Source: Candidatus Aenigmatarchaeota archaeon (GTDB taxonomy: Archaea > Aenigmatarchaeota > Aenigmatarchaeia > PWEA01 > JACRMZ01). From it: 17,664 nt of DNA. Both the position numbers and the translations under genes were made by a program. A model generated the notes under the pieces. That model saw only the letters and a program-made list of their open reading frames with translations. It made no database searches and had not been told where the DNA came from. Below are positions 8,862 through 14,916 of the stretch, piece after piece; positions within the stretch are counted from its first letter, which is position 1; the number at the start of each line of letters is the position of its first letter. The stretch spans positions 1 through 17,664 of the forward strand of contig JACRMZ010000097.1 in the NCBI GenBank assembly GCA_016219455.1, written 5' to 3'.

Positions 8862-9356
8862 TCAACGGTAAATCCAGCCGTCTTTATCTTTATTTCTGTT
8901 TTGAATCAATCTGCCCCGCTTATATGTTTGTGTGTAAGTGTAACTTGGCTTTTGTTTTCTTGTTGTCCAGACAGAAAACTTTAGCTCGTCTTCGGTGTTA
9001 ATAGAATTAACATAACTCAGAATGTTTTTCATAATATTGGCTCTATATTTGGTAAAAATGACGGAATCAAGAACTCCCGTTGTATCTCCAGGATATACCC
9101 ACCATTCATGTTTTACGGGTGGAAACCACCAATGTTTCGCGTTTTTTATTCTTTGTTTATATACCACTCTTTCATCAAAAAACAGGTGACATATTTTACA
9201 AAGAGTCACCAAATTTGATTTATCATGACTTTGAGAAAATTCGTATCCTTCTACGTGTGCAATTTCCAAATCATTCTTACCTCTACACGAAACACACTTC
9301 TTATCTCTCTCTAAAACTTCTTGTTTGAGTTTATCACTAAGTGGCTGTCGTGACAT
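8862..9356 (-). CDS. HNH endonuclease-like protein
   Basis: 164 residues. CVSC at 21-24, the EIAHVEGY strand with His34, Asn48 in SNLVTLC, and CKICH at 53-57 make a zinc-supported HNH motif. The arrangement C-x2-C, then AH, N, C-x2-C-H, is that of small HNH nucleases. His34 would be the general base and the two CxxC pairs hold structural zinc. After about residue 70 the protein is rich in Trp, Tyr and basic residues, with no domain I recognise. The gene is visibly richer in A+T than all its neighbours, with AT-ending codons, and lies between host genes just downstream of tRNA-Leu. This suggests recent transfer. There is no adjacent methylase or toxin partner, so it could be a defence nuclease, a remnant of an integrated element or a free-standing mobile gene. 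Confidence 0.85.
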   Translation of the reverse strand: MSRQPLSDKLKQEVLERDKKCVSCRGKNDLEIAHVEGYEFSQSHDKSNLVTLCKICHLFFDERVVYKQRIKNAKHWWFPPVKHEWWVYPGDTTGVLDSVIFTKYRANIMKNILSYVNSINTEDELKFSVWTTRKQKPSYTYTQTYKRGRLIQNRNKDKDGWIYR

Positions 9357-9460: not shown

Positions 9461-9585
9461 TGGTGCGGGGGAAGAGATTCGAACTCTCGAAGGCACTAAG
9501 CCACAGGATATCTTCATTGCATCAAGCTCGATACTTAAGAAGCCAATCTTAAGTCCTGCCCCGTTGGCCGCTTGGGTACCCCCGC
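9461..9585 (-). tRNA. tRNA-Leu(UAA) with a 38-nt anticodon-loop intron
   Basis: The acceptor arms GCGGGGG (9585-9579) and CCCCCGC (9471-9465) pair fully. The discriminator A is followed by an encoded CCA at 9463-9461. The T-arm is GAGAG-TTCGAAT-CTCTT. The anticodon stem CAGGA pairs with TCCTG around loop CTTAAGA, giving anticodon UAA at 9551-9549. A 15-nt variable arm (GGC/GCC stem) fits the long class II arm of Leu. The mature tRNA is 87 nt with CCA. The intron lies at the canonical 37/38 position, and a TATA box lies 26 nt upstream. Confidence 0.93.
9510..9547 (-). other. Intron of tRNA-Leu(UAA), position 37/38
   Basis: Removal restores the 7-nt loop CTTAAGA closed by CAGGA/TCCTG. The 3' splice bulge reads ATA, cut AT/A. 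The central helix pairs only C32, U33 and U34 with AAG, plus an A-G mismatch, so the bulge-helix-bulge is relaxed. Exact ends can shift by up to two bases because of a repeated AT. The intron contains CTTAAGT, a perfect 7-nt complement of exon bases spanning the anticodon. Confidence 0.85.
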
Positions 9586-13311: not shown

Positions 13312-13338
13312 TCGTGGAGTTTGGCGCCGAGGGAGGGA

Positions 13339-13411
13339 CACTCAGAGCCCTTCCTTTTACTGGAGAAGCCCCCAACAACAGGGAGCTTTCTTTTCCCAAA
13401 AGAAGGGCTCA
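13339..13411 (-). other. Intron 3 of tRNA-Ser(UGA): T-loop, position 59/60, 73 nt
   Basis: It splits TTCAAA/T in the T-loop. The splice motif is complete: outer helix GGGGG/CCCTC; central 4-bp helix TTCA/TGAG; 3-nt bulges AAT (cut AA/T) and TGT (cut TG/T); inner helix GAGCCCTTC/GAAGGGCTC (9 bp, extendable through TTTT/AAAA with one bulged G). Excision recreates a T-arm identical to that of tRNA-Ser(GGA). Confidence 0.92.
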
Positions 13412-13443
13412 TTTGAACCCCCGTGAGCAAAAGCTCACCGGAT

Positions 13444-13527
13444 CTCTTTACAGGGCAATGCCTGTCGATTCATCATCTCCGCCATTCAGAGTCAAGCCAT
13501 GAGCTCATCCTCGACTGACGTCGAGTA
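13444..13527 (-). other. Intron 2 of tRNA-Ser(UGA): anticodon loop, position 37/38, 84 nt
   Basis: Excision rejoins CTTGAA to A and restores a 7-nt loop closed by CCGGA/TCCGG. The splice bulges AAT and AGA flank a weak central helix (C-G, U-A, U-A plus a G-A mismatch). Two strong hairpins sit near the ends: CTCGAC/GTCGAG at 13510-13525 and ACAGG/CCTGT at 13450-13465. ATGAGCTCAT at 13499-13508 is a perfect palindrome. Box C/D-like words are also present. Confidence 0.87.
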
Positions 13528-13543
13528 TTCAAGTCCGGCGCGT

Positions 13544-13571
13544 TAAGTCAGCGGATACGTAGATCCAGCTT
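13544..13571 (-). other. Intron 1 of tRNA-Ser(UGA): D-loop, about position 20/21, 28 nt
   Basis: Splice motif: central 4-bp helix GGTC/GACT (one G-U pair) with 3-nt bulges CAA (cut CA/A) and TAA (cut TA/A), and inner hairpin AGC-T-GGAT/ATCC-GCT. Excision leaves the 13-nt D-loop AAGCCAGGTCCAA, the same length and nearly the same sequence as AAGCCTGGTCCAA in tRNA-Ser(GGA). Confidence 0.88.
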
Positions 13572-13617
13572 TGGACCTGGCTTCGCTACCTCGGCATGTT
13601 AACTAATTATAATGGTA

Positions 13618-14827: not shown

Positions 14828-14916
14828 GCTGGGATGGCCAAGCCTGGTCCAAGGCGCCAGACTGGAAATCTGGTGAGCGAAAGCTCGCGGGGGTTCAAAT
14901 CCCTCTCCCAGCGCCA
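14828..14916 (+). tRNA. tRNA-Ser(GGA), intronless
   Basis: GCTGGGA pairs with TCCCAGC; the discriminator G is followed by an encoded CCA. D-arm GCC-AAGCCTGGTCCAA-GGC, anticodon stem CCAGA/TCTGG with loop CTGGAAA (anticodon GGA), variable arm GAGC-GAAA-GCTC, and T-arm GGGGG-TTCAAAT-CCCTC. It is 89 nt with CCA and is the in-window template for reading the three-intron tRNA-Ser(UGA). Confidence 0.97.

Follow-up and report, generated by a model that had tools for sequence, protein, structure and literature searches.

A three-intron tRNA-Ser(UGA) gene and a single-domain EndA in an intron-rich lineage of Aenigmatarchaeota

Can a tRNA gene that is two thirds intron be a working gene, and which enzyme would splice it? 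Positions 13322-13595 of the window raise this question. The window is the whole stretch of DNA analysed here (17,664 nt), contig C96 of the assembly of a Candidatus Aenigmatarchaeota archaeon (G000; 866,430 bases, 121 contigs, 64.76% complete). We consider it highly probable that the locus is the working, probably the only, gene for tRNA-Ser(UGA), that its precursor is spliced by EndA and RtcB, and that its introns are part of a lineage-wide gain.

The gene lies on the minus strand, with its 5' end at 13595 and an encoded CCA at 13324-13322. Of its 274 nt, 67.5% is intron: a D-loop intron (28 nt), one at 37/38 (84 nt) and one at 59/60 (73 nt) separate four exons of 24, 16, 32 and 17 nt. A preliminary description had given the same coordinates and three introns of these lengths and had omitted the strand. 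Read by eye on the plus strand, the locus lacked a fitting T-arm and had the wrong discriminator, and the minus strand was adopted.

13572..13595, minus strand: exon 1 of tRNA-Ser(UGA); 5' sides of the acceptor stem and the D-stem, with the greater part of the D-loop; the splice boundary can slide by as much as 2 nt
13544..13571, minus strand: D-loop intron, 28 nt; bulge-helix-bulge (BHB) whose central helix is GGUC:GACU and whose inner hairpin is AGC..GCU; the outer helix is not adjacent
13528..13543, minus strand: exon 2; 3' side of the D-stem, 5' side of the anticodon stem and the loop as far as nt 37, including anticodon UGA
13444..13527, minus strand: anticodon-loop intron at 37/38, 84 nt; relaxed BHB
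13412..13443, minus strand: exon 3; nt 38, 3' side of the anticodon stem, variable arm, 5' side of the T-stem and the T-loop as far as nt 59
13339..13411, minus strand: T-loop intron at 59/60, 73 nt; hBHBh' (GGGGG-UUCA-(AAU)-GAGCCCUUC .. GAAGGGCUC-UGAG-(UGU)-CCCUC)
13322..13338, minus strand: exon 4; nt 60, 3' sides of the T-stem and the acceptor stem, G73 and encoded CCA
14828..14916, plus strand: tRNA-Ser(GGA), intact, comparison gene (ARAGORN, Rfam)
9461..9585, minus strand: tRNA-Leu(UAA) with a single 38-nt intron at 37/38

Removal of the three introns left a complete cloverleaf, as it does for archaeal BHB tRNA introns. The spliced form, 89 nt long, shows a class II variable arm, anticodon UGA, G73 and the encoded CCA, and its acceptor stem has 7 bp (GCCGAGG/CCTCGGC); ARAGORN called this form tRNA-Ser(tga). 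Its D-loop length and T-arm match those of tRNA-Ser(GGA), as previously described. On the raw window, both ARAGORN and the Rfam tRNA model (E ≤ 1) found tRNA-Ser(GGA) alone and missed tRNA-Ser(UGA), bearing out the earlier warning that scanners may overlook a gene of this composition. An HNH-endonuclease ORF (PF01844; window 8862-9356, minus strand) lies directly downstream of the intron-bearing tRNA-Leu(UAA).

We scanned the window with our own intron-aware scanner, in which stems and conserved positions earn points and every intron costs a penalty. Three hits reached at least 60: Ser(GGA) at 84, Leu(UAA) at 78 and Ser(UGA) at 68, the last with three penalties paid. Dinucleotide-shuffled versions of the window (n = 33) never scored above 59 (mean 54.5, sd 2.2). 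An enlarged scanner reached no more than 56 on one shuffle of 165 kb of relatives' DNA, and none of its hits there had CCA.

The splice-site motifs were scored by our own BHB score against 300 shuffles of each intron (P values uncorrected). The BHB of the T-loop intron is textbook (nine-pair inner helix by eye; P = 0.003), that of the D-loop intron is fair (4-pair central helix and inner hairpin, without an adjacent outer helix; P = 0.047) and that of the anticodon intron is relaxed (P = 0.056). Of the two textbook motifs claimed before, one therefore stands. Introns reached P ≤ 0.05 in 21/26 cases in G000, and in 10/26, 13/25 and 5/10 cases in its relatives G003, G010 and G007; the tRNA-Ser(UGA) of G003 gave 0.433 (D-loop), 0.005 (37/38) and 0.060 (59/60). 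Because many of the relatives' junctions fail a strict score, either relaxed motifs are tolerated there or some of our calls misplace the junction.

The same tRNA is interrupted elsewhere in the order, which has 14 genomes in our data set. tRNA-Ser(UGA) carries three introns in five of the six genomes of family f5 (G004, G007, G009, G011, G013) and was not found in the sixth, G012. The f5 introns lie at 37/38 (43-64 nt), in the V-arm (16-20 nt; ends chosen by the best BHB, which lacks an inner helix in G013) and at 59/60 (22-42 nt), with none in the D-loop. The single-contig genome G003 of family f4 has the plan of the window gene, with introns in the D-loop, at 37/38 and at 59/60 (C1:32484-32698). 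The 37/38 and 59/60 sites are thus common to all of these genes; the intron sequences differ. The window is one contig of 121, and an assembly chimera or misassembly might in principle have created the insertions. We give this almost no credence, since they sit in three loops where their removal restores a tRNA and a similar architecture occurs in assemblies of other genomes.

We compared six spliced tRNA-Ser rows, five distinct UGA sequences and the one intact GGA. All 144 cells of the 24 pairs were standard pairs, and two-sided changes occurred in 7/24 pairs (0/500 shuffles as high; slid partners gave none). Three of the seven (5-82 in the acceptor stem, 49-59 in the V-arm and 64-78 in the T-stem) are already seen when just the five UGA rows are compared; the remaining four depend on the intact GGA gene. 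Pairs 5-82 and 64-78 connect exons kept apart by introns in the window gene. The count of further pair types was ordinary (191/500 shuffles as high).

These data bear on whether the locus is instead a decayed copy, a pseudogene invaded by insertions whose true counterpart lies in the missing third of the genome. The incompleteness of the assembly and the two BHBs that are not textbook would fit such a history. A pseudogene should show broken stems or lost constraint; here every stem pairs and covaries with relatives. The search for another tRNA-Ser(UGA) proposed in the preliminary description, run on G000 with the spliced sequence (E ≤ 0.1), returned only pieces of the gene itself, Ser(GGA) and one T-arm, that is, no second copy in an assembly 65% complete, in which an intron-split copy could escape. 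A TATA-like sequence was seen by eye upstream of the gene. A decayed copy is unlikely because three introns recur in two other families (with 37/38 and 59/60 shared, including in single-contig G003), the stems covary and no second copy was found; we rate the full scenario as very improbable. UCA is the commonest Ser codon in 15 hand-picked window ORFs (63/3633 codons; AGC 53).

For a working gene, transcription would yield a precursor holding the 274 nt. EndA would cut each intron at its BHB (six cuts), and RtcB would join the exons (three joins) into an 89-nt tRNA reading UCA codons.

We then tallied introns across called tRNA genes, defined by a score of at least 65 with CC at the 3' end, or of at least 80; these genes are samples from model hits, pattern hits and chosen stretches rather than whole gene sets. 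Introns were present in 17/25 genes of G000 (8, 10, 5 and 2 genes with zero, one, two and three introns; 1.04 introns per gene), 19/21 of G003 (2, 10, 5 and 4; 1.52 per gene) and 13/16 of G010 (3, 6, 2 and 5; 1.56 per gene). The single-contig genomes G003 and G010 are denser in tRNA introns than G000. Besides Ser(UGA), Lys(UUU) has three introns in G000 (C51:13-192; D-loop, 30/31, 37/38), and the scanner called no four-intron tRNA in G000 or the relatives scanned. Several introns per tRNA at noncanonical positions, a trait of Thermoproteales, are therefore found here too. tRNA-Ser(UGA), described earlier as unusual for a gene outside that group, is not exceptional within its own lineage.

The tallies retain four G010 parses that seem incorrect on inspection by eye and could conceal further introns (307533, 327136, 330625, 795419), as well as three genes in whose spliced form ARAGORN finds no tRNA (G003 698590 and 831659, G010 327136). 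Five G003 candidates fell below the rule (16314, 825491, 850148, 759173, 823401), G010 Pro(GGG) at 309078 was called in one scan and absent from another and stands outside the tally, and G007 was scanned and left out because the scanner misparses V-arm introns. Three loci are odd in other ways. A tRNA 3' part with T-arm and CCA in G000 (C19:1241-1262, minus strand) has no recognised 5' part nearby and could reflect a long intron, a split gene or a truncation. A tRNA-Thr(UGU)-like gene in G003 (C1:831659-831731) has the T-loop GGCAGAG instead of TTCRANY. Three intronless tRNA genes in G010 (C1:219406-220659) lack an encoded CCA; the other 13 called G010 genes have both introns and CCA.

Intron number affected detection. 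Across 62 genes with zero, one, two or three introns, ARAGORN returned the called anticodon from the raw gene in 12/13, 16/26, 0/12 and 0/11 cases, and from the spliced form in 12/13, 25/26, 11/12 and 11/11 (long D-loops trimmed to 10 nt). The Rfam tRNA model (E ≤ 0.001) found 2-10 tRNAs in seven f2-f4 genomes, 13-30 in six f5 genomes and 16 in G000; the usual archaeal number of tRNA genes is ~35-46. Intron density may explain why two single-contig genomes yield only 8 and 5 tRNAs at this threshold. tRNAs hidden by introns matter for annotation and for estimates of genome completeness. Our literature search, which covered titles and abstract openings outside subscription journals, found no treatment of tRNA introns in the phylum Aenigmatarchaeota.

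Intron sequences are shared between tRNAs and between positions. When introns and 60-nt trailers of G000 were aligned pairwise, 57/1225 pairs outscored the best of 1225 shuffled pairs; 26 of them matched two introns, 22 an intron and a trailer, and 9 two trailers (trailers can overlap the neighbouring gene). A hairpin consensus gave six matches at E < 2e-4, all at tRNA genes: three in 37/38 introns, one in a D-loop intron and two just after CCA. The latter place this tRNA-intron hairpin family in the 3' trailers of two tRNA genes (G000 C37:1057-1090 and C37:4236-4258). Among pairs picked by eye before testing, 44/48 aligned columns agree between the 59/60 intron of G010 Cys(GCA) and the G010 Val(CAC) intron at 37/38, and 33/35 agree between the D-loop and T-loop introns of G010 Ala(UGC); in G003, the Ser(UGA) intron at 37/38 is similar to those at 59/60 in Tyr and Ala.

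The window gene contributes its T-loop intron alone to the 57 pairs, in three pairs scoring 11.0-11.5 against a null maximum of 10.5, hardly above chance. Similar introns in different tRNAs, as in Thermoproteales, thus characterise these genomes; the window gene's own introns are only a marginal case. By analogy with Thermoproteales, where part of the published account (PMC4033280) describes intron transposition, the shared sequences may reflect transposition, and a lineage-wide gain would have spread intron sequences to new tRNAs and new positions (37/38, D-loop, 59/60). Palindromes like GACGCACAC..GTGTGCGTC recur by eye around and inside tRNA genes, in G000 tRNA flanks and introns (L018, L019, L022, L024, L025) and in G010 (C1:787752).

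Genes for EndA and RtcB, the machinery of archaeal BHB introns, are present; RtcB was not found in G010. The EndA of G000 is a single unit of 177 aa, 61-72% identical to EndA of 13 loci (L026-L038; 12 named Candidatus Aenigmatarchaeota or Aenigmarchaeota, one only 'archaeon'). PF01974 matched exactly one gene in 8/8 genomes of the order outside f5, including single-contig G003 and G010, and PF02778 one gene in 7/8, with one more match below the cut-off in G002. These eight genomes thus have one single-domain catalytic EndA gene without a partner gene, as in alpha4-type enzymes, and we found in them no heteromeric EndA with a specific loop of the Thermoproteales kind. Aligned with the M. jannaschii enzyme, the order's single-domain EndA adds no residues at the position of the ASL, and it is ~4 residues short there of the three-unit, ASL-bearing chain of epsilon2/ARMAN EndA. 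K32 of the G000 enzyme was considered as an ASL substitute; it aligns with ARMAN-2 K161 but is not conserved in the order. According to a review, the A. pernix CSL superposes on the ASL (PMC6379350, cited from a partial text, as are the other publications here).

By sequence, the G000 EndA is single-domain and M. jannaschii-like (alpha4-type), presumably a homotetramer. This supplies the EndA classification suggested earlier; the broad-specificity, loop-bearing enzyme that had been expected was sought and not found. An alternative is that the gene is real and a heteromeric EndA with an overlooked second subunit cuts its introns. According to the portions of PMC4090602 and PMC6379350 cited here, most organisms with noncanonical introns have a heteromeric or three-unit EndA, and the G000 assembly is incomplete; the PF01974 and PF02778 counts in eight genomes, two of them single-contig, argue against a second subunit. 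We regard this alternative as unlikely, with a small but real chance. Under our preferred reading of a single-gene enzyme, the alpha4-type EndA must accept relaxed motifs.

One catalytic residue of this EndA is atypical. Ala or Thr occupies the position of the triad Lys (ARMAN-2 K282, A. fulgidus K287) in all 24 rows of an alignment. Among the best 120 of 1699 EndA homologues, Tyr and His are each present in 120/120 and Lys in 0/120 (108 Ala, 12 Thr), so the Tyr-His-Lys triad of alpha4-type enzymes is incomplete. Five aligned solved structures have Lys at this place (M. jannaschii, M. kandleri second domain, ARMAN-2, A. fulgidus and N. equitans), and Ala there is reported, in the part of PMC12397907 cited, to abolish cutting by ARMAN-2 and A. 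fulgidus EndA. Two other lysines are conserved in the same best 120 (L030 EndA numbering): K115, in the Tyr-His stretch (120/120), and K122, two residues after His (118/120). From the alignment, we propose that K115 or K122 stands in for the catalytic Lys.

Ala or Thr at the catalytic position was seen in EndA of Aenigmatarchaeota (L001:1273-1806, L030 and the 120 homologues listed) and in three Nanohaloarchaea rows. The Lys-rich Tyr-His insertion and the missing Lys were considered as marks of intron-rich lineages and set aside, both also occurring in the Nanohaloarchaea rows. Because the same residues occur in Aenigmatarchaeota and Nanohaloarchaea outside the order, and introns were counted inside it only, any link between Lys loss and intron number is hypothetical. 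Compared with the single-gene alpha4 EndA of M. jannaschii (1a79), the order's enzyme has ~6 extra residues between Tyr and His and Ala/Thr in place of the catalytic Lys. It has the long Lys-rich Tyr-His stretch in common with the N. equitans alpha subunit (3iey_A), which, unlike it, retains the Lys and is accompanied by a second subunit (3iey_B).

Multi-intron tRNAs are not new in themselves. Thermoproteales have up to three introns per tRNA and intron sequences common to different tRNAs (PMC8450103, PMC4033280), with a mean of 0.84 introns per tRNA gene in one published count (PMC8450103), and recorded noncanonical archaeal positions include 20/21, 29/30, 30/31 and 59/60 (PMC4090602). The genomes studied here resemble them in both traits and differ in belonging to another branch, Aenigmatarchaeota, and in having one single-domain EndA without extra ASL-site residues in place of a heteromeric, loop-bearing enzyme. 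Nor are such tRNAs now known mainly from Thermoproteales, as had been stated. Asgard Atabeyarchaeia/Freyarchaeia, another lineage, which we compare by tRNA genes alone, are similarly intron-rich, with introns in 92-95% of tRNA genes, more than half of them with several and often at noncanonical positions (PMC11291895, excerpt). The red alga C. merolae has a tRNA-Ile(UAU) with three introns (D-arm, 37/38, T-arm), the D- and T-introns being removed before the anticodon intron, and its EndA is reported in the passages cited to lack ASL and CSL (PMC9602550, PMC6379350). It is like the present case in its three introns and an EndA without ASL; unlike it, it is a eukaryote with an expected three-subunit enzyme and introns at 12/13 and 53/54. 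Overall, the earlier interpretation is supported in part.

The distinguishing features here are the lineage and the enzyme. In the review sections cited, multiple noncanonical archaeal tRNA introns go with heteromeric or loop-bearing EndA and one canonical intron with alpha4/alpha2-type enzymes (PMC4090602, PMC6379350), loop-less C. merolae being named as a eukaryotic exception (PMC6379350). A one-gene EndA without ASL and without the catalytic Lys, beside up to three introns per tRNA, runs against this trend and makes the determinant of EndA specificity directly testable. A wider picture is possible, although we lean slightly against it: the whole order would have intron-saturated tRNAs, most families would use a one-gene EndA that lost the catalytic Lys, with K115 or K122 replacing it and allowing relaxed BHBs (an alternative to ASL and CSL as a source of broad specificity), and the introns would be small mobile hairpins landing in D-loops, anticodon arms, T-loops and 3' trailers.

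Family f5 has a different EndA, a fused two-domain protein of ~365 aa (G007:C61; G009:C36 and C26, G009 having two such frames). Both f5 C-terminal domains that we read have Ser at the catalytic Lys position.
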